From assembly GCF_014644295.1 (NCBI RefSeq), contig NZ_BMKK01000023.1:1-47768 (forward strand): a DNA stretch of 47,768 nt, in the 5' to 3' direction. The stretch's first letter is position 1, and each line of letters opens with the position of its first letter. A program made the translations under genes and the position numbers. Source of the DNA: Emticicia aquatilis (GTDB lineage Bacteria > Bacteroidota > Bacteroidia > Cytophagales > Spirosomataceae). Positions 8,258 through 41,293 of the stretch are shown piece after piece. Below the pieces are notes generated by a model. That model searched no databases. It worked only from the letters and a program-made list of their open reading frames with translations, and had not been told where the DNA came from.

Positions 8258-8259
8258 TG

Positions 8260-8290: not shown

Positions 8291-8316
8291 AACGACATAT
8301 ATGAACAATAAAAATC

Positions 8317-10290: not shown

Positions 10291-10293
10291 AAA

Positions 10294-10335
10294 AATCGAC
10301 GTTCCGATTAGAGCCACCGCTTCGGCCGTTCGATT
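10294..10335 (+). terminator. Possible terminator after the M1 peptidase
   Basis: AATCGACG and CGTTCGATT form an eight-pair stem with one bulged base and a 25-nt loop immediately after the stop codon. The T-tract downstream is poor, so this could be only a weak terminator. Confidence 0.35.
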
Positions 10336-10367
10336 TCAAGTTGTTTTATAGATTATTTATACCAACC

Positions 10368-10388
10368 GAACAACTTAGAAAGTTGTTC
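10368..10388 (+). promoter_or_regulatory. Hairpin just upstream of the nucleotidyltransferase start codon
   Basis: GAACAACTT and AAGTTGTTC form a perfect nine-pair stem with a three-base loop, ending 8 nt before the ATG at 10397. It covers the place where a ribosome would bind, so it may limit translation initiation or serve as a dyad operator. Confidence 0.4.
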
Positions 10389-10396
10389 TACACCAA

Positions 10397-11242: not shown

Positions 11243-11254
11243 TTGAGTATGAAT

Positions 11255-11306
11255 AACGTCGGCAAGTAGTTCAGTTCCACTGTGGGTTCAAAGCCTTGCC
11301 GACGTT
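11255..11306. terminator. Bidirectional terminator between convergent genes
   Basis: AACGTCGGCAAG (11255-11266) and CTTGCCGACGTT (11295-11306) are perfectly complementary over 12 bp around a 28-nt loop. The right arm abuts the stop codon of the MFS gene. T-rich bases on either side allow use on both strands. Confidence 0.75.
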
Positions 11307-12551: not shown

Positions 12552-13382
12552 GAGGCTTGAGTAAATAGGGCTTTAGGATTTTTTTGAATAATCAAATGTA
12601 AAAAAAAACGTGCAGAATAATGCTTTTGGTACGGTATAAATAGAAGCATTTTTGAAGTAATAAACTCACAACAAAGTTTATGCCATAGAAACCCCGTTTT
12701 ACTGAGTTCTTATTAATCGGTAGCGTTTTATAAAGGTGTTTTTATAACACAAAAAAAAATGTATCCGCTTAAAAAAAAAACACTTCCCATTGTGACGGTA
12801 GATTATTATTGAGCGGATACATTTCTTTAAATCGTGATAAAAGCAGCCATTTTGAATTAATTATTACTTTTTGGGTGGCATGATTTTTCCGCTAAGCGTA
12901 GTGATAAAAACTAACGTTGATTTGTTTCCCTGCTCTTATGTTTATCATTAAAAAAAGAAAAGTTGAGACATGAAGCCTTGAGGTTTTATGGCTCCATCAT
13001 ATGTATAAGTTCATACAATGAATTAAGTACAACCTATTTTAAAGTAACTCAAAACGCAAATATAACTATGTTGATTATTGCTGCTGTAAACTTGTGGATT
13101 TTAGTCATAATTAATTACCGTGGAGGCGATAAAAAATCTTCGAAGCTTCCAAGTTTTCCATTACTTCTAAGAAAAATATGGCTTTTATCACAGAAGAGGA
13201 TATTAGTATTAGACAGTGTTTTTTTAGATAAAAAATCACATAGAAAGGTGGTTTTAGAATACTTTATGGCTCTTAATATCTGTTTCAAAACATGAATTCA
13301 AGCTAAAAATCTCTCTGATTTAATTCCAAATTGAGTAATTCAAGCTACTAAGAATAGCTGTTCACAAATAAAAAAAAATGTC
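12552..13382. other. 831-bp non-coding region upstream of the surface-protein cluster
   Basis: No convincing gene is seen on either strand. The sequence is AT-rich with several A-tracts. It contains a 13-bp inverted repeat (12757-12824) and looser complementary stretches (GTGATAAA copies near 12834 and 12900, and TTTATCAT near 12943). The promoter of the large gene at 13383 and that of the MFS gene must both lie here, but I cannot place them. The length and structured elements would allow a long regulated leader or a small RNA. Confidence 0.5.
12757..12824. repeat. 13-bp inverted repeat with 42-nt spacer
   Basis: AAATGTATCCGCT (12757-12769) and AGCGGATACATTT (12812-12824) are perfectly complementary. 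A-tracts lie before and inside the left arm. It may be a terminator-like or regulatory RNA hairpin, or the trace of a small mobile repeat. Confidence 0.6.
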
Positions 13383-18580: not shown

Positions 18581-18703
18581 TTAAAAATATAACAAAATGA
18601 ATATTCAAGAGAATAATCAGCTTGACCTGAAAAAGAAAAAGCCTCCCTCGTAAGTGTTGTCAAATATAATTTGATTGGAGAATTGCGATGTCCCAGCAAA
18701 GCA

Positions 18704-27700: not shown

Positions 27701-29740
27701 CCAATTGTATCAATGTTACGCCCAGATTTGATAACAACAATCGGTCAGCCATCGCCAGTATTAACTGAAGGTGTTACTTCGCAAATTCCAGTAACTGTGA
27801 CTAATAATGGTACAGCCACAGCCACAGGCCCATTGACGTTTACAACTACATTACCAAATGGCTTGACAGCTCCAGCGTCATTCTCAAATGGCGGATGGAC
27901 TTGTACAACATCTGGTCAAACGGTGACTTGTACAACGCCAAATACAACTGGATTGGCACCGACAGCGAGTACAACGTTTAATATTCCGATAACGCCAGCG
28001 GTAGGCACAGCAGGTACAACTCCAACAATAGGTGGAACAACCAGCCCATCACCTAACGAAACCGCAACAGGTAATAACTCTGGCTCGATGATACCTACAA
28101 CGCCAATCGCTGCAGTTTTACGTCCAGATTTGGTTACAACAATTGGTCAACCAAGTCCAGCATTGACAGAAGGTGTAACATCGTTGATTCCTGTAATAGT
28201 AACAAGTGTAGGTACAGCACCAGCCACAGGTCCATTGACGTTTACAACTACATTGGCCAATGGCTTGACAGCCCCAGCATCATTCTCGAATGGTGGATGG
28301 ACTTGTACAACATCTGGTCAAACAGTGACTTGTACAACACCAAACACAACTGGATTAGCACCGACAGCGAGTACGTCATTTAATATTCCGATTACACCAG
28401 CGGTAGGAACAGCAGGAACAACGCCTTCGGTAACAGGAACAACAACTCCAGTGCCGACAGAAACAACAACTGCTAACAATACAGGTACGATGACGCCAAC
28501 TGCTCCAATTCAATCAGGTACACACCCTGATTTGATAATAGTATTTGGCACACCAACACCAGTATTGATAGAAAATGTATCTTCTACGATTCCAGTAACT
28601 GTAACAAACGTAGGTACTGCATCGGCGAGTGGACAATTAGTAGTGACATTCAATATTCCGAATAATACTACCAGCCCATTATCGTACAGTGCAGGAAATG
28701 GTTGGACATGTAATGCTTCGGGTGCGATTCTTACTTGTGCAAATCCAAATGCAACAGGTTTAGCTCAAGCGGCAACAACTACATTTAATATTCAATTGAC
28801 TCCAAATGCCAACACTGCTGGTCAGTCGGTTATCTTAAATGGTTCGGTTACAGCAGTTACTGGCGAGACTGTACTCACTAATAACATAAGTGTAGTGGTA
28901 GTACCAACGCCTATCAGCTCACCATCTTTGAAAGTTAGTGTGAAGGCCTTCTTACAAGGTGCAGCCGTAAACGGAACAGGTGGCTTAATGCGTGATGATT
29001 TACGTGTGAAAGGTTTGATTCCTGCGTCTCAGCCTTATACTACTACCAACGGTTATACGCACGTCAATGGTGGAGGTACAGAAACGGTAGCACCATCGGT
29101 ATTGACTGCCACGGGCAATGATGCGATTGTTGACTGGGTAATGGTTGAACTTCGTAACTCAACAACACCATCAACGGTAGTAGCCACTCGTTCGGCCTTG
29201 ATTCAACGTGATGGCGATATTGTTGATGTGAATGGTACATCGGCAGTTTCGTTCAATAACCTTACTGCTGGTAACTATTACATTTCGGTACGTCACCGTA
29301 ACCACTTAGGGGTCATGACAGCGAGTCCAGTAGCTATTTCTGCTACCACTCCAGTGGTTGACTTCACCAGTACAAGTGTCGCCAACTATGTTTACCCAAC
29401 AGGTAACTTGAAACGCAATACAAGCCCTCAAGTAACTGATAGCGGTAAGAATATGCTATGGGCTGGTAATGCTTATCGTGACGATAAAGTGATTTTCCAA
29501 GGACCTGATAATGATGTAGATGCTATCTTCTTTAGTGTAATGACCGACCCTACGAATGTAAGTAGTTTCACCAACTTTATTCGTAACAGTGTCTATGACA
29601 ACGCTGACGTAGATATGGATGGACGAGTAATCTTCCAAGGACCTAACAACGAAGTTGATTTAATTTTCTTCGAGGTACTGACTCATCCAAGTAATACAAG
29701 TCAATTCTTGAACTATATCATTTGGCAGCAATTGCCATAA
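18704..29740 (+). CDS. Protein B: giant adhesin-like protein with 16 tandem CARDB/Ig-like modules and dockerin-like C-terminus
   Basis: About 3678 aa. The start is uncertain: ATG at 18704 is used, ATG at 18746 and TTG at 18671 are alternatives. About 95 polar residues precede a hydrophobic signal-like segment (LVGTLALTTVTLSTIAQIANA), so the signal peptide would have an unusually long N-region. Then come a beta-rich N-terminal domain, Ig-like segments and three SdrD-like modules (nt 20318-20688, 21493-21859, 22135-22502) homologous to those of protein A. Sixteen tandem 134-residue modules follow (nt 22501-28923), each starting RPDLVTTIGQPSP or similar and holding a Cys pair (W-T-C and V-x-C-x-N-P-N). 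The C-terminal block (nt 28930-29740) is homologous to that of protein C and ends in two VIFQGP-x-N-x-VD dockerin-like repeats. There is no T9SS sorting domain. It is probably a long stalk-like surface protein held by a partner. Confidence 0.9.
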   Translation: MKTQSNGCINQINAMNSNYTKTHLSLSVKAFFVKMYLLIKSMIANFYEKISEKIGGNFREIVFLKTPNLQIEVKEHQGFDSFFTRTFSRFYSRSAYRDLVGTLALTTVTLSTIAQIANAPANIKSPWVNGTYTNISASETNNNAPVSLRFVTVSNVNNVTNSTTSDNASISITGIGGQATIRVIDNDAADTYPAGTFAGFRIGTTGLLSGTIASTVIIRTYNNGVIAETYNAVTSLLGINSSLLNGDGTATVGFVTTADFDEISIEYTTLVGLLFNAEVYHAVIEKYAPGSSPCQCGSGVNCGLNTYANSTSAFSAFDGQTYSTYDLNASDLSYNAGQSYELCTDYTTGISETIIGIRNLVTFSNLCSGLTRTYSLKLKSDCSPAGTALGANLDGGSRNFNYYTVTPNTTYRACATVTMPACSSVGPTGQAEYSSSAWLIFNATSLCSAGAVAPTLSSTTISNVCSATTVNLNQVGLVTSTTPANASLVWFTNNAHTGAAYATPTTAGVGTYYAFYYDSAIGCYSPASAAVTVNIIGCSTNILALANSIYVDNGVGGGTAGNCVRDGSESANGLVTGLNVNLVSGSTVAYSAPIQPDGSYQLLSVANGSYTMIIASTPTATSVTLPTGWSMSSGTGSIPVVVSGGNLITPATAPSFCLKYCPVISSVTNQSPTICGLTDGSITLSGLRPGVSYGISYVKDGGAAVNTTIIANASGVVTIPSLGAGAYTNITATEGGCSSPAVTSTISNPAGPDISGTLKNDPTSCTGNGIYGSIILQGLTPNTTYTVGYYKDAATTETTGTFTTDGAGEIILTNLTAGVYNNIYATLNGCASPTVDVTLVGPTPPAAPILGVNTISNTCPATSVNLLTLSGTPPNGRTHEWHNANNTLPSSLVANPSAVSASGTYYVFAKSNASGCYSSGTPVTVTINICTATLSAPANTVYNDNGSGGGFAGNCVKDGTESATGLPGGLYINLIQGGLVKYSTAVNVDGSYVLSGILDGTYTLIISNTATATTSAMPTNFSLSSGTGSVNITVANSALTTPTALPAFCVRQNPTCDSINGTISVTPTGGTVGAGMTQKYLLLTPTGVILQESSVPTFIGLPAGNYNVVAIIYDIKPYTVGGNISAVTASACVGISAPVNFTVCGSSIAAVAGSVYNDNGAGGGTAGDCIQNGTEITSPIPSGLFVNLIQGATVIKSAAVQADGSYVVPSILDGTYTLIITNSAIATTSVLPVTWSVGVGSVPVVVAGGSVVTPNPAPKYCLKQGFPDIVTVLSQPTTTLVENAVSQLPVSVSNQGLSTATGQLTFTTTLPNSLSAPATFLDNGWTCITVLQTVSCTNPNATGLAPSANYNFNIPITPVIGSAGQTPPVVGTVTPVLNEQVTPNNTSLVTIATPIVAMPRPDLVTTLGQPSPSLQEGSASNIPVTISNIGNAPATGALTFTSALPNGYTAPAIFTQNGWTCMTSGQTVSCSNPNASGIAPTANTTFNIPITPSVGTAGTTTPISGTVSPVLNENVTPNNTATVTPSVAVAPLPRPDLVTTIGQPSTPLVEGQASNIPVTIANNGNASGTGPLTFSTNLPNGYTAPALFNQGGWTCLTSAQTVTCTNPNTTGLAPAASTTFNIPITPAVGTAGSALPVSGTIAPVPTENVIPNNTATMVPASNILPMPRPDLVTTIGTPSPALTEGVTSNIPVTVTNQGTAPGTGPLTFTTTLPTGLTAPASFTNGGWTCSTLGQVVSCTTPNTTGLAPAATTTFNIPVTPAIGTVGTSPIITGTTAPVPNETTTPNNTATTQVGPVQIGARPDVVTTIGTPSPALTEGVTSNIPVTLTNQGNAPATGPLTFTTTLPTGLTAPATFGINGWSCSTTIQTVSCTNPNTTDLAPAATTTFNIPVTPALGTGGTTPTIVGSVSPVPNETTLPNNIAALTPSAPIAMGLRPDLAVTLGQATPNMIEGIQSNLPVSISNQGTSAATGVLTFTTNLPNGITAPATFSNGTWSCTTSGQLVTCTNPNASGLAPTAISNFNIPITPVTGTAGTSPSIVGSVNVVPNENVTGNNTASITISPAIQIGARPDLVTTIGQPSPVLQEGVTSNIPVTVTNVGNAPATGPLTFTTNLPNGLTAPATFGQNGWTCVTSGQTVSCTNPNTSDLAPVGLTTFNIPVTPQAGTAGTLPTLIGSTAPVVNETTYPNNIGIMTPTQAILPAARPDIVASIGQPSPTLTEGVTSNIPVTLTNQGNANGNGPLTFTTTLPNSLTAPASFSNSGWTCTTSGQTVTCTTPNATGLVPTGLTTFNIPVTPIVGSAGQTPSITGTSTPLSNETVVGNNTASITTSPIAAMARPDLVTTIGQPSPALKEGTPSNIPVTITNIGTAPATGPLTFTTTLPNGYSAPTSFTDGPWTCATSGQTVTCTNPNAAGISPTGNTTFNIPITPASTTVGTTPTITGTTAPVPNETGLANNTGTMTPTSPVSALARPDLVTTIGQPSPALTEGVTSNIPVTVTNVGTAPAIGPLSFTTTLPNGLTAPASFTDGPWTCSTSGQVVTCSSPNTLGLSPAGTTTFNIPVTPAVGTAGTTPTITGTSIPVPTETTTPNNTGSMTPTAPIAPMARPDLVTTIGQPSPALTEGVISNIPVTVTSVGTAPATGPLTFTTTLANGLTAPASFSNGGWTCSTSGQTVSCSTPNTAGLAPTASTTFNIPITPAVGSAGSTPTITGTVAPAPNETTTPNNTGSMVPTAPIAAMLRPDLVTTIGYPTPALQEGITSMIPVTIANIGNAAATGPLTFTTTLPNGLTAPAAFTDGSWVCSTTGQTVICINGNTAGLVPSTSTVFNIPVTSAVGTANTTPTISGTLTPVPTEAITANNTGTMTPTAPIVSMLRPDLLVSIGQPLPALQEGITSLLPVTITNVGNASAAGSLTFTTTLPNSLTAPTSFSNNGWSCTTSSQTVTCTTPNATGLIPSGSMTFEIPVTSIAGSAGTTPTVTGTVSPVLNEIVTPNNTGTMTPTAPIVSMLRPDLITTIGQPSPVLTEGVTSQIPVTVTNNGTATATGPLTFTTTLPNGLTAPASFSNGGWTCTTSGQTVTCTTPNTTGLAPTASTTFNIPITPAVGTAGTTPTIGGTTSPSPNETATGNNSGSMIPTTPIAAVLRPDLVTTIGQPSPALTEGVTSLIPVIVTSVGTAPATGPLTFTTTLANGLTAPASFSNGGWTCTTSGQTVTCTTPNTTGLAPTASTSFNIPITPAVGTAGTTPSVTGTTTPVPTETTTANNTGTMTPTAPIQSGTHPDLIIVFGTPTPVLIENVSSTIPVTVTNVGTASASGQLVVTFNIPNNTTSPLSYSAGNGWTCNASGAILTCANPNATGLAQAATTTFNIQLTPNANTAGQSVILNGSVTAVTGETVLTNNISVVVVPTPISSPSLKVSVKAFLQGAAVNGTGGLMRDDLRVKGLIPASQPYTTTNGYTHVNGGGTETVAPSVLTATGNDAIVDWVMVELRNSTTPSTVVATRSALIQRDGDIVDVNGTSAVSFNNLTAGNYYISVRHRNHLGVMTASPVAISATTPVVDFTSTSVANYVYPTGNLKRNTSPQVTDSGKNMLWAGNAYRDDKVIFQGPDNDVDAIFFSVMTDPTNVSSFTNFIRNSVYDNADVDMDGRVIFQGPNNEVDLIFFEVLTHPSNTSQFLNYIIWQQLP
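22501..28923 (+). repeat. Sixteen tandem 402-bp repeats encoding CARDB/Ig-like modules
   Basis: Unit starts (the [RHF]-P-D motif) lie near 22501, 22901, 23303, 23705, 24107, 24508, 24910, 25312, 25708, 26111, 26513, 26915, 27317, 27719, 28121 and 28523, almost always 402 bp apart. All 16 units keep both cysteines. Units near 26111, 26513, 27719 and 28121 are closest to each other. The DNA differs mostly at third codon positions, so the array is old or has been diversified at silent sites. Confidence 0.9.
28930..29740 (+). other. C-terminal dockerin-like block of protein B
   Basis: About 270 residues aligned end to end with the C-terminus of protein C. The first part holds QRDGDIVD and the SVRHRNHLGVM stretch. 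The last 105 residues hold two repeats, WAGNAYRDDKVIFQGPDNDV then VDMDGRVIFQGPNNEV, each followed by D-x-IFF and a helix-forming stretch. The second has a D-x-D-x-D-G calcium-loop start with an insertion of about six residues relative to classical dockerins. The dockerin assignment is inference. Confidence 0.6.
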
Positions 29741-29840: not shown

Positions 29841-32800
29841 ATGAAAAGGAAACATATACTCCTATACGTGCAGTTTCTGATAGCTTTAGCTTTTCAGAGT
29901 TTTGCACAGACTTCCACCCAACCAGTGCAATATAAATTGACACTTGAGTCCGACGGAACCTACAAGGTTTGGATGAAGTCAATTACAGCTTATACCAGTA
30001 CGAATGCACGTATCGGTACCGCCCAAGTTACTTTGGTAGTACCCACCGGTACCGGGCAGAACCAGTTTACAGTCAGTAATTTGAGCGGCAATAATAGTAT
30101 GTCATGGTCAACGAGTGCTCAAACTCGTTTGAATAATCCATCGGTTAGTGGTACGCCAACCAACTCAGATTATATCGTGTTTGGTTTTACTCAACCAGGT
30201 AATGTACTTTTTGATATTGCAGCCAACCAAGATATACTTTTATTCAGTTTTAAAAACAGTAATAATTGTATTGGGCCAGTGGCTCTTTGGACTTCAAGCG
30301 ACCCACTTCAAGTACCGAATAATGAGAACTTTAATGTTGGTAATCAGATAACCATCTTTGGTGCGGGTTTTGGTAATAAGTGGAATAGTAATTACGGCAC
30401 AAGTCCAGTGGCGTGTAATGCTCCGCCCACGAATCCAGACTTGGTTGTGACAATTACGCCACCAGCCTCATTGACCCAAAATTCACCAGCGGTATTTAAT
30501 GTAAATGTAAGTAATATCGGTACTGGCCCTTCTTCGGGAACAACTACAGTAACCACACCGATTCCAGCCGGAATGACCTATACAGGTTCGGCGGGTACTG
30601 GTTGGACTTGCTCGCAAGTATCAAGTGATGTAGTTTGTACGAATCCAAATTCTATTCCAGCATCTGGTAGCAGTCCATTTAGTATTACACTCACACCCAC
30701 TCAAACGGGAACGGGCAGTATCTCAAGCACCGTATCGGGTGGGGGAGATGCGACCCCATCTACTTCAAGTCCAGCGAATTATTCGGTGGGTGTACCATTA
30801 ACACCTAATTTGATAGTAACAGTAACGCCGCCTGCCACATTAACACAGAATTCGCCAGCGGTATTTAATATCAATGTAAGTAATGTAGGTACGGCAGCCA
30901 GTAGCGGTACAACGACTGTTACAACACCGATTCCAAGTGGCATGACCTACACAAGTGCATCTGGTACAGGGTGGACTTGCTCACTGGTATCAAGCGATGT
31001 AGTTTGTACGAACCCGAATTCGATTGCAGTAGCAGGTAATAGTCCTTACAGTTTGACATTCACTCCAACACAAACAGGAACGGGTAGCCTCTCTTCAACA
31101 GTTTCAGGCGGTGGAGATTCAACTCCATCGACATCGACACCTGTTAACTATACAGTTAATGCTCCGTTAGCTCCCGATTTGGTTGTGAGTATGACCCCAC
31201 CGGCAATTATTACCCAAAACACACCCGCTGTTTTTAATGTAAACGTAAGTAATATTGGTACTGCTCCGAGTACTGGCACAACCACCGTAACCACACCAAT
31301 TCCTGCGGGTTTGACTTACGTCAGCTCGTCTGGTACGGGGTGGACATGTTCGCAAGTATCAAGTAATGTAGTATGTACAAATCCAAACTCGATTGCAGTA
31401 GCGGGAAGCAGCCCATATAGCCTTACATTTACACCTACACAGACAGGAACAAGCAGTATTTCATCAACCGTATCGGGTGGTGGAGATGTAACCCCATCGA
31501 CATCAACGCCAGTGAATTATACGGTGAATGCTACCACACCAACATGTTTAGTAGAATATAAAATCACAACTGAGGCGGATGGTTCTTATAAAGTATGGAT
31601 GCGTCCGAATACTACCTTCACAGGGACGGCGGCAACCATCGGAACGGCTCAAGTAACGGTGGTGTTTCCTTTGCCATCGGGTGGCGTGACACCAACGATT
31701 ACCAACTTAACGAGCTTCAATAGCATGGGTTGGTCAACGAATACTTCTCAGCAAGTTTCTCAGCCTAACTATTTCTATGCAGTCTTTAGTTTCAGCCAAG
31801 CGGCCAGTTCGACGGTGTTTGATTTGAATGCAGGCGTTGAAATTCCGTTGTTTACTTTCAAAAACACGGGTACTTGTTATGGACCATTAAATTTGTGGGC
31901 AACAACCGATGCTTTCCAAGTACCCAATGCTCTCAACTTCAATGTTGGTAATCAAATTTCCATCAATGGAGCAGGCCCTGGCAATAAATGGTGCGGTAAC
32001 TATGGTTCAGCCGCTGCTTGTCCAGCAGTAGCTTCACCGAATGTGACTGTAAGTGTTACAGGCCCAACATCAACGACAGTAGGAACACCAGTGACGTTGA
32101 ATGTCAATTTGACCAATACGGGAACCGGCCCAACCACTTCTCAGTTGACAGTAACAACTCCTATTCCTGCTGGAACCACCTTTACGGGTTCAACTGGTAC
32201 GGGCTGGACTTGTACTCAAGTGAGTAGTAATGTTGTTTGTACCAATCCTAATACATTGGCTGCTAATGGTGGTACAAGTACCTTGGGTTTGACCTTTACA
32301 CCGACGCAGACTGGTACAATTAATATCACTCCGACTGTCAATGGTGGCGGTTTGACTAATCCAGTAACAGCTACGCCTTATCCAATTACAGTGAATCCTT
32401 CGGCCGTTAATCCAATTTTGGGTCTAACATTGACTGCCCCATCAACTGGGACACAAAATGTACCTTACAATTATTCAGCAACGATTGCTAATACTGGTAC
32501 TGGTCCAACCGTTGGTACAACCACCTTTACATTGGCACTGCCGACTGGCGTGAATTACGTATCGGTAACTGGTACGGGCTGGACTTGTGTTCCACAAACC
32601 ACATTTGTGACTTGTACGAACCCTAATCCAATAGCCAATGGTTCAAGTAGTTCTTTAAGTATTTCGGTTAATCCGACGATAACTGGAACAATGAGTGCTT
32701 TTGGTTATACCACTGGTGGCGGAGCCAATACCTCTTTCAGTTCATTGGTCAATACAGTGATTTCTCCAGTTAATATAGGACAGCCCAATATTGTAGTAAG

Positions 32801-35800
32801 TTCAGTATCCAATCCAGCTACTGCTACAACCAATGTACCATTTACGCAATCAGTAGTGATTGGGAATATTGGTACTGTACCAGCAACTGGCCCATTGACT
32901 TACACCACTACATTCCCAACTGGCGTTAATTTCTCGTCAGTCAATAGTGGTTGGACTTGTACACAAACTGGCCAAGCATTGACTTGTACGAATCCGATTT
33001 CACTATCCAATGGAGCATCAGTTCCATTAGATATTCAATATGTAGCTACCCAACCATTGGTATTTACCCCAACGGGTGTGTTATCGGGTAATGGTATTTC
33101 GGGAGGAAATGCGAACGTAGCAGGAACTCCAATCACGATTACTAATAGTGGTAGCCAACCATGTACAGCAGGAGATTGCGGTATTGGGGTAAGATATGGC
33201 GTCAAATTAGGAGCTGATGGCAAGACATATACAGTTTACATGAAGTCAGCCAACACCTTTACTGGTGGAGCGGCCCGTATCGGAACGGCTCAGGTTACGC
33301 TTAAAGTACCACATGGTACTGGCGGAAACCGTTTCTTACCAAGCAATATTTCGAGCTTTACTGCAACTGGCAGCATGAACTGGACTACGAACACAAGTAG
33401 CCGAGTAGATGCCCCTTCGATTGACCCAAACAACGATTATATTTTCTTTGGTTTCAGCCAAGCATCCAGCCCAGCATTATTTGATATTGTGGCGAATGTA
33501 GAATACCCATTGTTTAGTTTCCAGAATTTGAATACCTGTAGTGGTACAGTTGGTCTGTGGGAAACCACCGACCCATTCCAAGCAGGCTTCCAGAGTTTAA
33601 ATCCTGGTAATCAGATGACAATTTTGGGCAATGGCACGGCCAATGCGTGGAAATGTAATTATACTTGTGCTTTACCATGTACATTGCCCGCTGATTTGAC
33701 AGTTTCGGCTGCTCAACCAGTACCGGGCTTGTCGGTTGGTCAAACCTCAAGTATCAATGTGACTGTGACAAACCTTTCAAACACTACGAGTGGACAAATT
33801 ACTTTAACAGTAACACTTCCCACGGGTGTTAGTACACCATCTAACAGCTTTAGTGTAAGTGGATGGTCATGCACGACTGTTGGACAAACAGTAACATGCA
33901 CGCATCCAAACACCAGTGGCTTGACGCAAAATTCAAGTATTTCGGTAGGTATTCCAGTAGTACCCGCCAGTACAGTGGCTGGTCAGATTCTGACTTTCAA
34001 CTTTGTGGTTGCTTTGGCAGGAACAGAATCAAGTACGAGCAATAATACGGCTACCTTGATTACCGCTGCTGCCGTTACGGCACCGAATCTTTCTATCAAT
34101 ATGCCAGCGTTTACGCTCTATGCTGGACAAGCATCGAATGTAGTAGTAAATGTGGTAAACAGTGGCAGTGTGAATGCTACTGGAGCATTGACAAGCACCA
34201 TTACGCTTCCAGGAGGGGCAACGGCACCCGCTACCTTCAGTAGTGGAGCATGGTCATGCACAACGCTTGGTCAGGTGATTACTTGTACGAATCCAAATAG
34301 CAGTGGCTTAGCTCCGAGTGCGAGTTCAACGATTACGATTCCAGTGACTACTCCAGCCAATGCAACGAATGGTCAAATCGTAACGATTGTAGCGAACGTA
34401 ACAGCGATTTCGGGTGAAAGCAATTTGAATGATAATTCAACAACGGGAACGGGTCAGTTAATTTCTGAACCCAACTTGAAACTGGTGAAAACAGCGACAC
34501 CGTTGGCTTTACAAGGCACTCCTTTTGATTTTACCTTTACGGTGAGCAATGTTGGAGGTTCAAATTCATCAGGTACAATTACTGTGAAAGATACGCTTCG
34601 TAACGGTTTAAAATTCGTGACGTCATCAAGCAGTAATTGGACTTGTGCGAAGTTGGGTGTTGATGCCCAAAACAATGACATTGTACAGTGTACAACTACT
34701 GCTACTCACTTAGCTAATGGCGGTAACTTCAGTATGTTTACTGTACGAGTGAATCCTACATTGGCCGTAACAGCCAGTAATATTGCTTATATTAGTGGTG
34801 GTGGAGCCAGTTCGACAGTAGCCAAACCATCGGCACCTTGTAATACTTGTGCCAACGGCATCACTGGTGTATTTGTCCAACCATCACCCGATGCAACCGT
34901 AACGATTTCGCAACCAAGCCCAGTTTTAATCGCAGGTCAGGCTTCGACAATCGTGATTACGGTCAACAATATTGGCGGAACGGCCATTACCACGGCTTTG
35001 ACTACGAGTATTGTATTACCAGTAGGTATTACGATGCCAACCACCTTTACAAGTGGAAGCTGGACTTGTACGACCAGTGGACAAACAGTTACTTGTACTA
35101 ACCCCAATACATCGGGTATCCCAGTGGGTGGTAACATTCTGCTTAACTTGATTGTAACCCCACAAACAATCCTTGTCGGTACAACGCCAACGATTACAGT
35201 GAATGTATTGCCATTCAGTGGAGAATCAAATACGACTAATAATAGTGCTACTTTGGTTATTATCAGTCCAGTAGGAGCTCCATTGGTACCAGATTTGACT
35301 ATTAGCTTGAACCAACCACAAAGTAATTTAGTAGTAGGACAAAATTCTACGATGAATGTAGTGGTATCGAATCTTGGATTAGGAGCAGCGACTGGTCAGT
35401 TGACCGTAACGATGTCGATTCCGAATGGAGTGACTGCTTCTTCGGGAACATCGAATGGTTGGACTTTGACGGTCAATGGAGGAATCCTGACGGCAAACCA
35501 TCCAAATACAACTGGTTTAGCTTCGGGCGGTACAACGAACTTTGCGGTGACGCTGACGCCAAGTTCGACGATTATTAATACGCAGCCAACCTTTGTGGGT
35601 ATTGTAAGCACAGTAGCCAATGAGTCGAATGCCTTTAATAATACGGCGGTCTTGTCAACCAGTATGAGTGTAACAACGACAGGAGTGCCCAACTTGACAA
35701 TTTATGCGGTATTGAACAATAATTTTGTAGCGGGTCAAATCTCTACTTTTAATGTCTATGTAGTGAATACGGGTGTGGTATCAGCCACTGGAACTTTGAC

Positions 35801-38513
35801 CACTACGATTACCTTACCAAGTGGTTTCTCGGCTCCAAGTTCATTCTCATCGAATGGTTGGACGGGTACAACTAACGGACAAACCGTTACATTGACTCAT
35901 CCGAATACTACTGGTTTCGCACCAGCCAATATTCTGAACATTCAAGTGCCAGTCATTCCTGCAACAGTTTTGGTAGGGAATGTTCCATCGATGTTTGTCT
36001 TCAATATTGGCCAAGTACCAAACGAAATAGCAACGGTAGATAATGTATTCTACTTTATTTCGTCGAATCCAGTATTAGGCAATTCAGTACCTAACATTAC
36101 AGTAAACATCAATGCGATTATTCCATCGTTGACAGTTGGTCAGACCTCAAATCTGACAATCAACTACATCAATACTGGTACAATCATCCAAACGGGAACA
36201 TTGGTTACCAACATTGTATTGCCGAGTGGTGTTTCGGTACCTTCGTCGTTTACAAGTAATGGTTGGACATGTAACTTAATCGGACAGACTTTGAACTGTA
36301 CGAATCCGAATACGGGTGGTTTACAACCGAATTCAATATTGAATATCATCCTTCCAATGACGCCAAATGCTGGTACGGCCGGAACTACTCCAGGTCCAAT
36401 CAATATTTACATCAACGGAGGAACAGTTCCTTATATTTACACGTTTACATCGCCGATTGCGTCAGCACCAGCACCAAACATTACAGTGAATGTAGGAACT
36501 ATTCTGGCACCAATTGCTGCTGGACAAACCAACTATATTCCGGTATTCATCTCGAATGTAGGTTCGTTGAGTGCCACTGGCCAATTGACGATTAATGTTA
36601 CTTTACCAGCGGGTATATCAGCACCGACCTCGTTTAGCCAAGGTGGATGGACGTGTACGATGAGTGGTCAGACCATGACATGTACACACCCGAACACTAC
36701 AGGTTTAGCAGCAGGCGGAACGAATATTTTCTTGTTGCCGATTATTCCAAGTACTACTTTAATAGGTACAACACCTTCGATTACTATCAATGTTAATCAA
36801 GTAGTGGGTGAAATAATCACCAATAACAATACCTTTATTTATGTCATCAATCCAGCGATTGTAGGCTCATCGGCACCGGACTTGACCGTTCAAGTGTCGC
36901 AACCATCACCAGCCTTGACGGCCGGTCAGAGTTCGACAATCACGGTGACGGTTCAGAACATCGGTAGTGCAACGGCCAACGGACAATTAACGGCTTCGTT
37001 TACATTACCTGCCAACTTTAGTATTGCAACGTCGAGCTTCACGAGTGGAGCGTGGACGTGTAATGTAGCTGGGCAGGTAGTAACCTGTACAAACCCTAAT
37101 ACCAGTGGTTTGGTTTCGGGTGGAACAAGTGCCTTTACGGTTCAGCTTATGCCAAGCAATAGTGCCGTAGGTTCATTGTTGAATTTGGTGGTGAATGTCA
37201 ATACGATTGTAGGGGAGTTGAATGTTATCAATAACTTCTATACTTTGAATGTCAGTGTACCAGTGATTGTGAATCCGAATACGATTCCAAACCTTAATTT
37301 GGTATTGAGCTACAACCAATCGCTTACTTACTACCAAAATACGCCATTTACATTGAACTACTTGGCATATAATAGTAGCCTGTTGGCATCAACAACTGGC
37401 ACCATCACGGTAAGAGATACATTAAGATACGGCTTGAAATTCGTTTCAGGAACGGGTCTTGGCTGGACAATCAATAAAGTAGGGGTAGATGCCCAAGGCA
37501 ACGATATCATCGTGGCTACTTATAGTGGCGTATTGTCAAGCAATGCTTCTGCCTCTTATAGTTTGACGGTGAATCCGACGCTTACAGGAACGATTTATCA
37601 CCAAGCCTATATTTCGGGTGGTGGTATGACCCTAACCATCAAAGGTTCGGCACCGTGTATTGGTTGTTCGATTAGCCCAACTGGCCCAATCATCATCAAC
37701 CAACAGCTCAACTTCAATGTGGCGGTAAAAGCCATTTTACAAGGGCCTTACGTTGCTTCGGCGGGCATGATGCACGATAGTTTGAGGGTTAAAAACCTGA
37801 TTCCATTGTCGAATCCTTACAGTTTATTGGCGGGCTTTACCCAAGTAGGAAGTGGCACCGAGACAACTACATCGACTATTTTGTCGGTAGGTGGCACCAA
37901 CGCCATCGTTGACTGGGTATTGATTGAGTTGCGAAGTGCAGCTAATCCAAGTCTGATTGTGGCAACCAAAGCAGGTTTGATACAACGTGATGGCGATGTG
38001 GTAAGTCCAGCCGATGGAACTTCTCCACTACAATTCACGGGTATTCCAGTGGGTAGTTACTATGTGTCTATTCGTCACCGTAATCATTTGGGAGCCATGA
38101 GTGCCAATCCAGTGACTTTGGGAACAACCACGGCAACGGTAGATTTGACCAACTCGGCCCAACCAGCCTATAAGCTAACGGGTGTAACGTCGAGCAATTA
38201 CCCTCAGTTTGTATCGGGTAGTAAAGCGATGCTTTGGGCGGGTAATGCGGCATTCAACAACCAAGTTATCTTCCAAGGACCAAACAATGATGTTGATATG
38301 ATATTCTTCACCATCATCAGCGACCCATTGAATACGCAGGTTATATCGAACTTTATTTACAAAGGCTACAGTCAGTCAGATGTGAATATGGACGGTAAGA
38401 CTGTTTTCCAAGGGCCTGATAATGAAGTAGATATTATCTTCTTCAATGTATTGATGCACTCAGAGAACCCAGGTTTCTTGGCCAACTATATTATCTGGCA
38501 ACAGATACCTTAG
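29841..38513 (+). CDS. Protein C: giant surface protein with three cohesin-like domains, 16 CARDB/DUF11 modules and a dockerin-like C-terminus
   Basis: A 2890-aa exported protein; the signal peptide ends SFA/Q at about residue 22. Domain order: cohesin-like 1 (about 26-187), three CARDB/DUF11-like modules (199-565), cohesin-like 2 (569-727), three modules (732-1105), cohesin-like 3 (1110-1280), ten modules (1282-2620), and a C-terminal dockerin-like block (about 2625-2890) homologous to that of protein B. Each cohesin-like domain contains IGTAQVT, a D/F-Y-x-x-F-x-F-S/T-Q strand, FD-[IL]-x-[AN]-N/G-x-[ED], [LF]-F-[ST]-F-[KQ]-N and an ending N-x-GNQ-x-[ST]-I-x-G-x-G. Modules near residues 1540 and 2485 are closest to classical DUF11 and share a DTLR-x-GLKFV stretch. 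There is no T9SS sorting domain. The layout suggests an adaptor scaffold that binds several partners and is itself docked; this role is inferred. Confidence 0.9.
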   Translation: MKRKHILLYVQFLIALAFQSFAQTSTQPVQYKLTLESDGTYKVWMKSITAYTSTNARIGTAQVTLVVPTGTGQNQFTVSNLSGNNSMSWSTSAQTRLNNPSVSGTPTNSDYIVFGFTQPGNVLFDIAANQDILLFSFKNSNNCIGPVALWTSSDPLQVPNNENFNVGNQITIFGAGFGNKWNSNYGTSPVACNAPPTNPDLVVTITPPASLTQNSPAVFNVNVSNIGTGPSSGTTTVTTPIPAGMTYTGSAGTGWTCSQVSSDVVCTNPNSIPASGSSPFSITLTPTQTGTGSISSTVSGGGDATPSTSSPANYSVGVPLTPNLIVTVTPPATLTQNSPAVFNINVSNVGTAASSGTTTVTTPIPSGMTYTSASGTGWTCSLVSSDVVCTNPNSIAVAGNSPYSLTFTPTQTGTGSLSSTVSGGGDSTPSTSTPVNYTVNAPLAPDLVVSMTPPAIITQNTPAVFNVNVSNIGTAPSTGTTTVTTPIPAGLTYVSSSGTGWTCSQVSSNVVCTNPNSIAVAGSSPYSLTFTPTQTGTSSISSTVSGGGDVTPSTSTPVNYTVNATTPTCLVEYKITTEADGSYKVWMRPNTTFTGTAATIGTAQVTVVFPLPSGGVTPTITNLTSFNSMGWSTNTSQQVSQPNYFYAVFSFSQAASSTVFDLNAGVEIPLFTFKNTGTCYGPLNLWATTDAFQVPNALNFNVGNQISINGAGPGNKWCGNYGSAAACPAVASPNVTVSVTGPTSTTVGTPVTLNVNLTNTGTGPTTSQLTVTTPIPAGTTFTGSTGTGWTCTQVSSNVVCTNPNTLAANGGTSTLGLTFTPTQTGTINITPTVNGGGLTNPVTATPYPITVNPSAVNPILGLTLTAPSTGTQNVPYNYSATIANTGTGPTVGTTTFTLALPTGVNYVSVTGTGWTCVPQTTFVTCTNPNPIANGSSSSLSISVNPTITGTMSAFGYTTGGGANTSFSSLVNTVISPVNIGQPNIVVSSVSNPATATTNVPFTQSVVIGNIGTVPATGPLTYTTTFPTGVNFSSVNSGWTCTQTGQALTCTNPISLSNGASVPLDIQYVATQPLVFTPTGVLSGNGISGGNANVAGTPITITNSGSQPCTAGDCGIGVRYGVKLGADGKTYTVYMKSANTFTGGAARIGTAQVTLKVPHGTGGNRFLPSNISSFTATGSMNWTTNTSSRVDAPSIDPNNDYIFFGFSQASSPALFDIVANVEYPLFSFQNLNTCSGTVGLWETTDPFQAGFQSLNPGNQMTILGNGTANAWKCNYTCALPCTLPADLTVSAAQPVPGLSVGQTSSINVTVTNLSNTTSGQITLTVTLPTGVSTPSNSFSVSGWSCTTVGQTVTCTHPNTSGLTQNSSISVGIPVVPASTVAGQILTFNFVVALAGTESSTSNNTATLITAAAVTAPNLSINMPAFTLYAGQASNVVVNVVNSGSVNATGALTSTITLPGGATAPATFSSGAWSCTTLGQVITCTNPNSSGLAPSASSTITIPVTTPANATNGQIVTIVANVTAISGESNLNDNSTTGTGQLISEPNLKLVKTATPLALQGTPFDFTFTVSNVGGSNSSGTITVKDTLRNGLKFVTSSSSNWTCAKLGVDAQNNDIVQCTTTATHLANGGNFSMFTVRVNPTLAVTASNIAYISGGGASSTVAKPSAPCNTCANGITGVFVQPSPDATVTISQPSPVLIAGQASTIVITVNNIGGTAITTALTTSIVLPVGITMPTTFTSGSWTCTTSGQTVTCTNPNTSGIPVGGNILLNLIVTPQTILVGTTPTITVNVLPFSGESNTTNNSATLVIISPVGAPLVPDLTISLNQPQSNLVVGQNSTMNVVVSNLGLGAATGQLTVTMSIPNGVTASSGTSNGWTLTVNGGILTANHPNTTGLASGGTTNFAVTLTPSSTIINTQPTFVGIVSTVANESNAFNNTAVLSTSMSVTTTGVPNLTIYAVLNNNFVAGQISTFNVYVVNTGVVSATGTLTTTITLPSGFSAPSSFSSNGWTGTTNGQTVTLTHPNTTGFAPANILNIQVPVIPATVLVGNVPSMFVFNIGQVPNEIATVDNVFYFISSNPVLGNSVPNITVNINAIIPSLTVGQTSNLTINYINTGTIIQTGTLVTNIVLPSGVSVPSSFTSNGWTCNLIGQTLNCTNPNTGGLQPNSILNIILPMTPNAGTAGTTPGPINIYINGGTVPYIYTFTSPIASAPAPNITVNVGTILAPIAAGQTNYIPVFISNVGSLSATGQLTINVTLPAGISAPTSFSQGGWTCTMSGQTMTCTHPNTTGLAAGGTNIFLLPIIPSTTLIGTTPSITINVNQVVGEIITNNNTFIYVINPAIVGSSAPDLTVQVSQPSPALTAGQSSTITVTVQNIGSATANGQLTASFTLPANFSIATSSFTSGAWTCNVAGQVVTCTNPNTSGLVSGGTSAFTVQLMPSNSAVGSLLNLVVNVNTIVGELNVINNFYTLNVSVPVIVNPNTIPNLNLVLSYNQSLTYYQNTPFTLNYLAYNSSLLASTTGTITVRDTLRYGLKFVSGTGLGWTINKVGVDAQGNDIIVATYSGVLSSNASASYSLTVNPTLTGTIYHQAYISGGGMTLTIKGSAPCIGCSISPTGPIIINQQLNFNVAVKAILQGPYVASAGMMHDSLRVKNLIPLSNPYSLLAGFTQVGSGTETTTSTILSVGGTNAIVDWVLIELRSAANPSLIVATKAGLIQRDGDVVSPADGTSPLQFTGIPVGSYYVSIRHRNHLGAMSANPVTLGTTTATVDLTNSAQPAYKLTGVTSSNYPQFVSGSKAMLWAGNAAFNNQVIFQGPNNDVDMIFFTIISDPLNTQVISNFIYKGYSQSDVNMDGKTVFQGPDNEVDIIFFNVLMHSENPGFLANYIIWQQIP
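30436..37700 (+). repeat. Sixteen CARDB/DUF11-like modules of protein C in groups of 3, 3 and 10
   Basis: Module starts lie near 30436, 30811, 31177, then 32035, 32410, 32788, then 33685, 34081, 34467, 34885, 35287, 35688, 36086, 36473, 36875 and 37288. Cohesin-like domains interrupt the series at about 31546-32020 and 33170-33680. Thirteen modules keep the Cys pair of the W-x-C ... C-x-N/H-P-N motif; the modules near 35287, 35688 and 37288 lack both cysteines. Confidence 0.8.
37710..38513 (+). other. C-terminal dockerin-like block of protein C
   Basis: Homologous over its full length to the C-terminal block of protein B: QRDGDVVS, SIRHRNHLGAM, then WAGNAAFNNQVIFQGPNNDV and VNMDGKTVFQGPDNEV, each followed by D-[MI]-IFF, and an identical end IIWQQ-x-P. 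The first repeat has N at calcium-loop positions 1 and 5. The second has D-V-N-M-D-G, the classical dockerin start. Confidence 0.6.
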
Positions 38514-38584
38514 TTGTTGATTAGTTACTGTCGGACCGCCGATGCGGTTGATTAGTATAACAAACAATTTAATAAAGAATACTC

Positions 38585-38625
38585 TACTACTTCTGCCTCC
38601 CCGATGGGGAGGGCAGGGGTAGGGC
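38585..38625. repeat. GC-rich intergenic hairpin element
   Basis: CCTCCCC (38596-38602) and GGGGAGG (38606-38612) form a perfect stem with a GAT loop, flanked by GGCAGGGGTAGGG. It is far more GC-rich than its surroundings. From memory, similar GGGGAGGGCAGGGGTAGGG elements recur between genes in Cytophagales; I could not check this. It may end transcription after protein C. Confidence 0.5.
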
Positions 38626-38671
38626 TAAAAAAATAACATTAAACTCGTGGCGACGAACCGCAAATAATACA

Positions 38672-39508
38672 ATGAAAAAACTATCAAAATTGGCATTAGT
38701 TGCTTTATTGGCAGGAGCAGCGATAAACGCTCAAGCTCAGGTTAAGTTTAAAATTACTCGCAAAGACGACCTAAAGACGTATGTGGTGAGTATGTTGCCA
38801 GAACAAACCTTGAAAGGAGCAAAAAATACTATTGGAACGGCCCAAGTGACGCTTCGAGTGAAGTCGGATAAAGCATTTATCTTGAATAACTTGAAGTCGG
38901 CAAACCAAGAGGCCGAGTGGCAAACGGGAGCTGCCATGAAGTCACCCGATGGAGCGGGGGATTACGATTATGTATCAATCAACTTGAAAAACGTTGGGAC
39001 GAAAGCCTTCACATTTACCGAAGGTCAAGAAGTGGAGTTGTTTTCTTTTCAAAATGCAGGAGAGCAGCTCGATGCCAATGTAGAGTTGATAGATAATAGT
39101 AATGATGAACTAATCAAAACTCACGGAGCGGAGTTCAACGTAAAAAATCATATCAGTGTTTTAGGTTTTGGACACAGAAATGCTTATTCGGGCAATGCCG
39201 GTTCGTTGATGAATCCTGAGGAAGTAGCCAAGAAACTTCGTATTCAGAAGGTATTCCCTAACCCAGCGGTTGATAGAACGACAGTAGTTTATGAAAACCT
39301 GTTGGACGAAACGGCCGGGGATTTATTCTTAACAATCATAGATTCGAGAAGTTCACGAGAACTTGTACGCAAGAAAGTAAAAATGGGAGCAGGAGAGTTT
39401 AGCATTGATTTATCTCTCGAAGATTTGACCGAAGGCAGTTATTTGGTTCATATCGAAAAAGATGGTTTACGCATCGGTTCGGCTCAAAAGCTGATGGTCG
39501 TGAAATAA
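38672..39508 (+). CDS. Protein D: short cohesin-like surface protein with T9SS type A sorting domain
   Basis: A 278-aa exported protein. The signal peptide ends INAQAQ near residue 23. Residues about 24-175 form one copy of the domain found three times in protein C and once in protein E: IGTAQVTLRV, DYDYVSINLKN, EGQEVELFSFQNAG and FNVKNHISVLGFG. The last 85 or so residues (from KVFPNPAVDRT to LMVVK) are a T9SS type A sorting domain, which normally leads to attachment to lipopolysaccharide on the outer surface. It has the make-up of a minimal anchor, one cohesin-like domain plus one sorting signal, next to two giant proteins with dockerin-like ends. It could equally be an independent small surface protein that shares an adhesive domain with its neighbours. 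Confidence 0.9.
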   Translation: MKKLSKLALVALLAGAAINAQAQVKFKITRKDDLKTYVVSMLPEQTLKGAKNTIGTAQVTLRVKSDKAFILNNLKSANQEAEWQTGAAMKSPDGAGDYDYVSINLKNVGTKAFTFTEGQEVELFSFQNAGEQLDANVELIDNSNDELIKTHGAEFNVKNHISVLGFGHRNAYSGNAGSLMNPEEVAKKLRIQKVFPNPAVDRTTVVYENLLDETAGDLFLTIIDSRSSRELVRKKVKMGAGEFSIDLSLEDLTEGSYLVHIEKDGLRIGSAQKLMVVK

Positions 39509-39541
39509 GATGCATACGTAACCAAACAAAAAGTAGGAGAT

Positions 39542-39577
39542 AGAGGTGCTCGTGAATAAAATTTCATGAACACCTCT
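39542..39577 (+). terminator. Terminator after protein D
   Basis: AGAGGTGCTCGTGA and TCATGAACACCTCT form a 14-position stem with one mismatch and one G-T pair around an eight-base loop, followed by TCTTGTTTT. Confidence 0.7.
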
Positions 39578-39721
39578 TCTTGTTTTGGTGAGGTTTTTGC
39601 TATAAAAACATTAATAATACCTTGATTATCAATAGTCTTGGTCTATAATGCTTTTCCTAATAAAAATGTGAATGAATGATACCACCGAATCATTTTTTCA
39701 TAAAAAACACTTGTTTGTGCC

Positions 39722-41263
39722 ATGAGATTTTTGCGTTTTTTTTGGATGATTGCTGCTTTGGCATGCTTGCCTAAAATAGCATTTTCGCAAATAACCATAA
39801 AAACGACCTTAGAACCCGATGGCGTGACCTATAAAGTTTCGATGGTTTCGGATAGAAGTTTTACGGGTAGTGGTTCGTACATTGGTTCTTCACAGATTAC
39901 ACTCGTAGTGCCACACGGAAGTGGCAATAATTATTTTCAACTATCAAATATTAGTTCGCCAATTTCGAATATGAAATGGCTTTTTTCGGGTAGAGCCGAT
40001 GCTCCCGCCGAAAACCCTGATTACGACTATTTGTTTTTTAGTTTCAATAATTCGGTTTCGCCTCCAGTGAAATTCGATATTATCGCAAATCAAGAAATAG
40101 TTCTTTTTACATTCAAACGCACAAGCCAATGTGCAGGCCGAGTTTACAACTTCAATAATCAGAATGACCCATTTTTATTTCCTAATTCGCTGGGTATAAA
40201 CCCTGGTAATAGTATATCAGTGTTTGGAGCGGGTGGAAACGCTTATGGAGGGAATCAAGTACCACAAACATTAGTGAATCTGAGTGTCGATGATATTAAC
40301 CCATGTGCTGGCAATGAGGTAGTTTTTACGGCCGCTCCTACCATTAGTGGTAATTATTATTATCAATGGTATGTCGATGATAAACCACAAGGTTCGCCAA
40401 GTAGTAGTCCAGTTTTTAAGTATTCTCCGCCAAAACAAAACACAGATTCTCAGCCCAATGTTACAGTTAAGTTATTGGAGTCTGTAACAAACCCTTGTGA
40501 TGCGTACAGTGCCAGAAAGGCTTTGAAAATCAATGTGAAAGGCATACCCGATAATAAGATTGCTTTTGCAGGAAGTGATTGTATGCTTTTACCAACAACT
40601 ATTTCAGTCAAAAGCGATGTATCTGCTCAATATCAATGGCAAGAAAACGGAAATGATTTATTGAACGAAACAAAAAATACGCTTGAAGTAAAGAAAAGTG
40701 GTAATTATACAGTAAAAATCACAAAAAATGGGTGCGTGATTACATCAAGTGTCCAAAAAATAGCTGGAGTTGGCGATGCAGATAAAATAAGTCTTAGTGC
40801 GGGCAGTGACACAACCATTTTGGCTGGTGAAGCAGTAAAACTCAAGGCCAATAGTACTAATGCTCTCTATTTTAGTTGGACTCCCGCTAACGATTTATCC
40901 GATGCCACGATTCAACAGCCAATCGCACGGCCTTTAGAAACGACCAAATATACCCTCACAGCTAATAACGATTCGGGTTGTCCTTCAACAGCAAGCGTAA
41001 CGATTAATGTGTTGCCTGCTATTTATATTCCTAATGCTTTTTCACCCGATAATGATGGATTAAACGATACTTGGAAACTCGAAAACCTAAGTTTTTATAC
41101 AGATGCTACAGTAGAAGTTTTCAATCGTTGGGGTAATACTATTTTCTACTCAAAAGGTTATTCAACTGCTTGGGACGCCTCGGGAATTGATGCTGCCTCT
41201 TATTCGTATGTTATCAAAACCAAGTTTAAGACTTATCGTGGAATCGTGACTGTGCTTAGGTAA
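39722..41263 (+). CDS. Protein E: cohesin-like, PKD/Ig-like surface protein with T9SS type B (gliding-associated) C-terminal domain
   Basis: A 513-aa exported protein; the signal peptide ends AFS/Q near residue 22. Residues about 24-180 are the cohesin-like domain shared with proteins C and D (IGSSQITLVVPHGSGNN, DYLFFSFNN, FDIIANQEIVLFTFKR, NPGNSISVFGAGG). Three Ig/PKD-like segments follow (about 182-275, 278-345 and 350-430), each with a Q/S-W strand such as YYQWYVD or FSWTPAN. The last 85 residues, starting IYIPNAFSPDNDGLNDTW and containing EVFNRWGNTIFYS, are the gliding-motility-associated C-terminal domain (type B T9SS signal). Such signals usually go with secretion by type IX export and, for gliding adhesins, with cell-surface association. 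It is separated from protein D by a terminator, so it is probably transcribed on its own. Confidence 0.92.
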   Translation: MRFLRFFWMIAALACLPKIAFSQITIKTTLEPDGVTYKVSMVSDRSFTGSGSYIGSSQITLVVPHGSGNNYFQLSNISSPISNMKWLFSGRADAPAENPDYDYLFFSFNNSVSPPVKFDIIANQEIVLFTFKRTSQCAGRVYNFNNQNDPFLFPNSLGINPGNSISVFGAGGNAYGGNQVPQTLVNLSVDDINPCAGNEVVFTAAPTISGNYYYQWYVDDKPQGSPSSSPVFKYSPPKQNTDSQPNVTVKLLESVTNPCDAYSARKALKINVKGIPDNKIAFAGSDCMLLPTTISVKSDVSAQYQWQENGNDLLNETKNTLEVKKSGNYTVKITKNGCVITSSVQKIAGVGDADKISLSAGSDTTILAGEAVKLKANSTNALYFSWTPANDLSDATIQQPIARPLETTKYTLTANNDSGCPSTASVTINVLPAIYIPNAFSPDNDGLNDTWKLENLSFYTDATVEVFNRWGNTIFYSKGYSTAWDASGIDAASYSYVIKTKFKTYRGIVTVLR

Positions 41264-41271
41264 ACAAAAAA

Positions 41272-41293
41272 GAAGCTGCCTTTGGGCAGCTTC
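41272..41293. terminator. Bidirectional terminator between protein E and the S41 peptidase
   Basis: GAAGCTGCC and GGCAGCTTC form a perfect nine-pair stem with a TTTG loop between convergent genes. There is an A-tract on the left for the minus strand, and a pyrimidine-rich ATCTCTTT on the right for the plus strand. Confidence 0.8.

Follow-up and report, generated by a model that had tools for sequence, protein, structure and literature searches.

Clostridial cellulosomes are built with type II cohesin/X-dockerin pairs and include the scaffoldin CipA and anchors such as SdbA. Cohesin and dockerin modules are also said to occur outside cellulosomes, a general precedent that Peer et al. reportedly set out in 2009. 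Here we describe four genes, B, C, D and E, in a stretch of 47,768 nucleotides (nt) from Emticicia aquatilis (Bacteroidota; Cytophagales), positions 1 to 47,768 of contig NZ_BMKK01000023.1, which we call the window; the source genome is 6.75 Mb in 36 contigs. We think it probable that B, C, D and E encode a non-cellulosomal, cohesin/X-dockerin-like surface docking system, in which giant proteins with CARDB and DUF11 repeats are held non-covalently on anchors of the type IX secretion system (T9SS), with C as the adaptor. As in the clostridial type II system, there is a predicted beta-sandwich socket, a predicted plug made of an X-like sandwich followed by a two-loop end, a scaffold that carries sockets plus a plug of its own, and separate anchor proteins. 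In contrast to the clostridial system, the window's modules give no significant match to PF00963 or PF00404, the loops are about four residues longer and have a conserved D or E at loop position 16, the anchors use T9SS sorting domains, the plug and socket genes adjoin, and the passengers are giant repeat proteins in which no enzyme was matched.

Among published work, the closest precedent that we found comes from Cloacimonadota, where a scaffoldin carries a surface-attachment domain at its C-terminus; the available part of the report cites a T9SS review for this domain (PMC8542988). As far as that part goes, dockerin-bearing proteins dock there, too, on a surface-attached cohesin scaffold; however, ordinary domain annotation identified the Cloacimonadota modules, and their passengers are enzymes, whereas the window's modules are unrecognised and its scaffold, which has no sorting domain, is apparently held by separate small anchors. 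The planctosome of freshwater Planctomycetes is a proposed non-cellulosomal cohesin/dockerin complex and likewise has an adaptor bearing both modules, but in the accessible portion of its description (PMC6461901) the passengers are peptidases, attachment is through lamin-tail domains and the phylum is another one. D and E have the sorting domains typical of type A and type B cargo of the T9SS, but would themselves serve as holders for proteins that have no such signal. An open-access literature search, mostly without subscription papers, found no description of this arrangement in Cytophagales.

The genes C, D and E and their coordinates were given correctly in the preliminary description of this DNA, which covered 29841..41263; B lies outside that interval, yet was counted in the gene set. 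All four genes are on the forward strand. Protein B (3689 amino acids (aa); 18671..29740), the putative passenger, consists of CARDB-type repeats and a C-terminal X-like and dockerin-like block. Protein C (2890 aa; 29841..38513), the putative adaptor scaffold, has three cohesin-like domains (29907..30428, directly after a signal-peptide-like N-terminus, 31533..32033 and 33171..33692), DUF11/CARDB repeats and a C-terminal block of the same kind as that of B. The two putative anchors are small: D (278 aa; 38672..39508) has one cohesin-like domain (38732..39229) and a type A sorting domain (39251..39472), and E (513 aa; 39722..41263) has a cohesin-like domain (39782..40288), an Ig_7 domain and a CHU_C, or type B, sorting domain (41024..41248; residues 435-509). 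The simplest account of these genes is plug and socket, with D and E as anchors, C as adaptor and B as passenger, and this layout, already proposed in the preliminary description, is supported.

The strongest evidence for docking is genomic linkage. Among 222 genomes of the window's family, Spirosoma included, the cohesin-like domain was found in 60 and the block in 95. Linkage was counted for the 115 blocks, in 55 genomes, that matched at E<=3.2e-61; the weaker matches, many of which cover the X-like part only (about model positions 2-187), were omitted, and the domain positions used for the next-gene count were the 150 listed places. With these strong blocks, both modules occur in 52 genomes, the domain alone in 8, the block alone in 3 and neither in 159 (Fisher p=3e-38, not corrected for relatedness). 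The next gene carries a cohesin-like domain for 108 of the 115 blocks, a strong linkage of the two modules. Among the matches listed, the domain starts 96-437 nt downstream and on the same strand for 72 blocks, and within 500 nt of the 115 blocks there are two domains upstream and none on the opposite strand. For 11 blocks whose gaps measure 836-4944 nt, the domain was found every time in the next frame of at least 150 aa (about 740 nt on in locus L207), and loci L021 and L061 supply two further next-gene domains. Thirty blocks had no listed domain within 5 kb; an iterated hidden Markov model (HMM), trained partly on the loci it was used on, detected a diverged copy in the next gene for 23 of them when run on the downstream DNA.

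This linkage bears directly on an alternative that we regard as unlikely, in which the block itself serves secretion or stability, as a cap (a calcium-folded end piece) or as a so far uncharacterised sorting signal, and the cohesin-like domains are sticky domains of adhesins; the genes would then form one adhesin operon whose products do not bind each other. A cap or signal has no need for a domain-bearing gene next to it, yet such a gene follows nearly every block counted. The alternative does draw support from the fact that B and C have no other recognised export route, and from the existence of some domain-bearing proteins with neither a sorting domain nor a dockerin-like end.

The block itself can be read both ways. 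B and C end in homologous blocks of about 270 residues (52% identity over 271 columns), in which the X-like domain, of transthyretin/Ig-like type (28928..29458 in B, for which the structural prediction comes from the homologous block in C; 37713..38234 in C), precedes a dockerin-like pair of repeats with extended calcium-type loops at the extreme C-terminus (29459..29737, ending in WQQLP, in B; 38235..38510, ending in WQQIP, in C). The duplicated calcium loops that the preliminary description had seen on these two proteins were borne out, the repeats being duplicates of each other (probability 98.3%, P=1.1e-14 when hhalign compared the two halves of 50 related blocks). Across 50 distinct blocks, the consensus of the second loop is D100-x-N84/D14-x-D72/N24-G100-x-[VT]-x-[FY]-Q88-G94-x-x-N90-[D72/E26], the figures being percentages, and the first is a weaker copy with N90/D10 at the first position, D78 at the fifth and a final D100. 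The duplicated D-x-[DN]-x-[DN]-G loop of type I dockerins is thus present, in a form extended relative to the 12 residues of the canonical dockerin calcium loop. The last residues of the 50 blocks are Q92-[LI]-P100 (again percentages) and the block terminates the open frame in 49 of them; a strictly C-terminal position, an invariant final P and a preceding Q-[LI] are what a sorting signal might show, and they count for the cap or signal reading, but the C-terminal position in 49 of 50 blocks also belongs to the evidence for docking.

Against a cap or signal stands the resemblance of the block to recognised dockerin-like ends in an outgroup of 28 out of 29 loci (two of them in the window's family; L141 was omitted, having no single open frame). 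Ten of the 28 outgroup ends weakly match Dockerin_1 (PF00404) at E<=1 (best 5.8e-4), which is the commonest family among them, and the known role of dockerins is binding. The window-type loop pair is homologous to these ends (probability 95.4%, P=1.8e-8, with 25 of the 28 ends), although the aligned stretch is partly the flank before loop 1. A following frame of more than 250 aa is present in 24 of the 28 outgroup loci; 16 of these next frames match Por_Secre_tail and 6 match CHU_C at E<=1, with some frames cut by the end of the locus and the two sets possibly overlapping. Next genes outside the family are thus mostly T9SS-tailed, which again argues against a cap or signal. NCBIfam gave no family for the ends of B and C or of a set of 16 blocks, and Y_Y_Y, matched by 2 of the 16 (best 2.8e-5), was disregarded, since it is unlikely to characterise the block.

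A genome-wide count gave two dockerin-like ends, those of B and C, the next best matches having E-values of 0.046 and 0.142. This small number matters for a further alternative, that of a true enzyme-carrying, cellulosome-like complex whose enzymes are encoded elsewhere in the genome. Its attraction lies in the scaffold-like C with its three sockets and in giant Saprospiraceae proteins with four and six copies of the domain. However, dockerin-like ends occur in this genome on B and C alone, PF00404 has no match above the cut-off in it, and Pfam finds CARDB and DUF11 domains in B and C, together with minor beta-sandwich or unrelated matches, and no glycoside hydrolase. Because only B and C carry the plug and neither matches a glycoside hydrolase, we rejected an enzyme-collecting complex and consider this explanation extremely improbable. 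The layout of the preliminary description is supported, and no glycoside hydrolase was matched in B or C, but an adaptor with its passengers amounts to less than a cellulosome and is not enzyme-collecting.

The putative socket is a domain of about 165 residues with three copies in C, one in D and one in E. That one domain occurs five times in these proteins was an earlier claim that proved real: the five copies align over their full length, with identities to the first copy of 52, 48, 32 and 43%, and the two of ten pairs compared by BLASTP match far beyond chance (first copy of C with D, E=3e-17; third copy of C with E, E=6e-33). The shared motifs quoted for the copies are also there, except in the third copy of C, which has NPGNQMTILG (M for I), and in E, which has LFTFKR (R for N). 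The source genome holds seven cohesin-like domains, two of them outside the window on contig C19 (L011), where neighbouring proteins at 6301-11097 and 11133-13499 have an N-terminal cohesin-like domain, DUF11-type repeats and C-rich tails; a dockerin-like end was not found near them, and they would be sockets with no adjacent plug. For family tests we used 44 domain sequences, drawn from the window and from 15 public loci. The strongest stray Pfam match among them, that of 3 of the 44 to Pyocin_S (best 1.3e-5), was disregarded because this family hardly seems to be the one that defines the domain. Sequence searches of the PDB gave no match at E<=10 with one alignment, 2 unrelated matches with a second and 7 unrelated matches (E>=0.25) with that of the 44 domain sequences.

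Predicted folds lean toward cohesin and X-dockerin, which is suggestive and not proof. AlphaFold2 models the third cohesin-like domain of C as a confident all-beta domain (mean predicted local distance difference test (pLDDT) 90.2, predicted template modelling score 0.87), and in a Foldseek search of the PDB with this model, cohesin or cohesin-dockerin structures made up 17 of the 22 top hits (14 distinct entries). The remaining top hits were CBM2-type domains, a chitinase and an Ig-like protein, and the presence of cellulose-binding domains among the Foldseek hits (6qfs, 1exg, 6xx1) is the basis of another reading, in which the cohesin-like domain binds carbohydrate, as a CBM2/CBM3-like sandwich, and the dockerin-like block has some other partner. 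We find this quite improbable: the cohesin entries both outnumber and outrank the cellulose-binding ones, and the linkage of domain with block would be left unexplained. In the predicted block of C, the X-like part folds well and the loop part contains two short helices that follow the two loops. Chains of X-dockerins or cellulosome complexes are 8 of the 24 top Foldseek hits of the block (ranks 2, 4, 6, 8, 14, 22, 23 and 24), and the entries 3kcp, 4wi0, 4u3s and 4fl4 are common to the hit lists of domain and block, with different chains for the first three. The resemblance to cohesins and dockerins noted in the preliminary description finds its counterpart in a cohesin-leaning model of the third domain; the predicted dockerin half is of low confidence, and by sequence the domain gave no PF00963 match and no significant homology to cohesins.

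The sorting domains divide the proteins as had been claimed earlier. D matches PF18962 with 27.9 bits (cut-off 27) and E matches CHU_C (PF13585) with E=2.3e-17, whereas no sorting model of Pfam or NCBIfam matched at E<=1 in full-length C or in the 1246 C-terminal residues of B. The gene for the type IX pore, SprA, is present in the same genome (SprA_N, E=1.6e-146, in one 2423-aa frame), and D and E thereby have both a sorting domain and a T9SS, as expected of T9SS-dependent surface proteins. Por_Secre_tail matches at 56 places in this genome, 50 of them over the cut-off, which is, by rough estimate, of the order of one gene in a hundred. Wider among relatives, we scanned 68 of 77 distinct complete domain proteins, omitting frames of more than 1300 aa and three proteins with a dockerin-like end; 28 of the 68 match Por_Secre_tail, 7 match CHU_C and 15 match the putative CVP-CTERM sorting domain. 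The last of these is the NCBIfam name for a short C-terminal tail, C-x-C-x-P-[FIV]-x-[IV]-x-K, seen on many surface proteins (L011, L017-L020, L176, L189 and other relatives); no paper containing that name was found in the open-access literature search.

We suggest that the sorting domains of D and E would direct them through the type IX system to the surface, where they would stay, each displaying one cohesin-like socket at its mature N-terminus. C would dock on D, E or both by its X-like and dockerin-like block and offer three more sockets, to which B may dock by its own C-terminal block. B and C, which have no detectable T9SS signal, would in this way be held on the surface non-covalently and presumably calcium-dependently, and the held giants may act in adhesion or as a surface layer. 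Directly observed are the modules, the sorting domains of D and E, the SprA gene and the conserved order in which a dockerin-like end precedes a cohesin-like domain; the binding itself, its dependence on calcium, the assignment of plugs to sockets, the passage of B and C across the outer membrane and the function are inferred.

Trees of the two modules point to possible pairing classes. In the domain tree, a D-type clade of 23 (support 0.904) extends from Saprospiraceae to Spirosoma and takes in the window's D, which stands there with the D-like, type A anchors of those groups; the E-type domains form a separate clade of 8 (0.999), and the scaffold domains stand apart. In the block tree, the end of B groups with four Spirosoma-type B ends in a clade of 5 (0.963), all located before scaffold genes, and the end of C groups with seven others in a clade of 8 (0.985), all before D-type anchors. 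Distances among dockerin-like and cohesin-like modules correlate over 45 adjacent pairs with r=0.83, the largest value in 2000 permutations being 0.22. This agreement is compatible with two plug-socket specificities.

Several observations weigh against the docking interpretation. The binding of plug to socket is itself a prediction, and the agreement of the trees is also expected of conserved gene blocks whose products do not bind. The genome has seven sockets for two plugs, and 7 of the 115 blocks lack a clear next-gene domain: one lies at a contig end, one is doubtful (in genome G249, a partial domain match at E 4e-5 in one scan and none with the iterated HMM) and five have no detectable domain. 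In the structural comparison, the best Foldseek E-value for the third domain of C is 7.1e-3, none is below 0.001, and TM-scores are 0.33-0.45. The dockerin-like half of the block has a pLDDT mostly below 50; the best X-dockerin hit of the block as a whole, at rank 2, has E=1.7e-2, TM-scores are 0.18-0.26 with all E-values above 0.001, and ranks 1 and 3 are taken by a pollen allergen.

The family models are a further difficulty for docking. None of the 44 domain sequences matches PF00963, the Pfam Cohesin family, at E<=1, nor does anything else in the window's genome, and none of the 16 blocks, the window's own ends included, matches PF00404 at that threshold. Because both models were tested and neither was matched, we have not filed the modules under either family. 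A comparison of the domain with 23 Bacteroidota PF00963 cohesins by hhalign gave P=0.051 against 0.068-0.49 for controls, the nearest control being about equal. Bridging profile comparisons, which used 20 of the 24 outgroup next-gene proteins, gave P-values of 0.0044-0.029 against 0.30 and 0.69 for controls, and another form of the comparison gave 0.053; the outgroup next-gene proteins have N-terminal domains that compare weakly with the window's domain, at P 0.0044-0.0075, and with PF00963, at 0.02, values that are not significant alone. By sequence, the domain is therefore a candidate cohesin at most.

The gene order of the window has counterparts in its relatives. In the Spirosoma loci L017, L018 and L019, a dockerin-ended protein is followed by a scaffold with two domains and a block, a D-like protein, a CVP-tailed domain protein and an E-like protein, and L021 and L022 have parts of this order. 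In L021 (Spirosoma utsteinense, 1816-4131) a stop divides the B-like gene into two frames, the first of which has a diverged cohesin-like domain; the matching block of genome G508 contains a TAG. In L175, L187 and L191, three of the five blocks with no detectable domain, the dockerin-like end is followed by an RHS/YD-repeat-like frame and not by a cohesin-like gene. In five of nine Saprospiraceae/Bacteroidetes loci (L025-L028 and L030; in L028 about 1 kb off), a D-like gene is preceded by a dockerin-ended giant. The other four have no dockerin-ended giant in the DNA examined, and in L024, L029 and L031 the domain lies within about 1 kb of the start of the contig. The giants at L031 1744-10878 and L032 9917-20434, with four and six cohesin-like copies, are possible large scaffolds; both frames exceed 3000 aa and are open at the end of the DNA examined.

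Across 296 genomes of the phylum, the domain model was matched in 2, the window's genome and G226, in which the block again lies 201 nt upstream of the domain. The block model was matched in 41 of the 296, many through the X-like part only. PF00963 was matched in 82 of these genomes, the window's genome not among them. The available parts of a study of two soil species (PMC6247017), and of a second paper likewise, report no cohesins or dockerins in the Bacteroidetes studied; the 82 genomes with PF00963 and the T9SS-tailed next genes contrast with such reports, as far as their accessible text goes.

A wider reading, which we consider unlikely, is that of a docking code across Bacteroidota, with the window as its elaborate, two-storey version: giants lacking a sorting signal would end in an X-dockerin-like plug, and the gene after them would encode a socket protein that has a T9SS signal. 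The socket might then also export the plug-bearing passenger, the two pairing in the periplasm and crossing the type IX pore as a folded pair that shares a single sorting signal, so that signal-less proteins are secreted by hitch-hiking; C might in addition polymerise head to tail, giving a fibre or a layer. Should the docking system itself be real, the surface toolkit of Bacteroidota gains a display of very large proteins that have no sorting signal of their own, and the next gene becomes a testable partner for many large secreted proteins with unannotated C-terminal ends. The unannotated pair of modules adds to the PF00963 cohesins of the phylum. If the pairs bind, they would provide new orthogonal protein-docking pairs, and the crossing of the outer membrane by proteins without a signal would become directly testable.

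The gene upstream of B encodes protein A (1721 aa; 13383..18548, forward strand), a possible operon member, in which the genome search with both modules found no cohesin-like or dockerin-like module. Genes A to E lie on the same strand with gaps of 122, 100, 158 and 213 nt. A scan of the B-C, C-D and D-E gaps detected no terminator-like site, and a 9-pair stem-loop (41272..41293, no strand assigned) lies directly after E and before a convergent gene. Terminator-like sites in the region number 5, fewer than the shuffle mean of 9.8, and the stem-loop is weak evidence. A promoter pattern scan (1 match, 1.40 expected) and a sigma-70 scan (23 sites, 26.1 in shuffles) were uninformative on operon structure. 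In the B frame, about 105 residues precede a hydrophobic, signal-like stretch (window 18671-19060), which suggests that either the N-terminus is unusually long or translation starts further downstream. Further upstream on the same strand, at window 8317-10290, is an M1-family peptidase with a T9SS type A sorting domain of its own.

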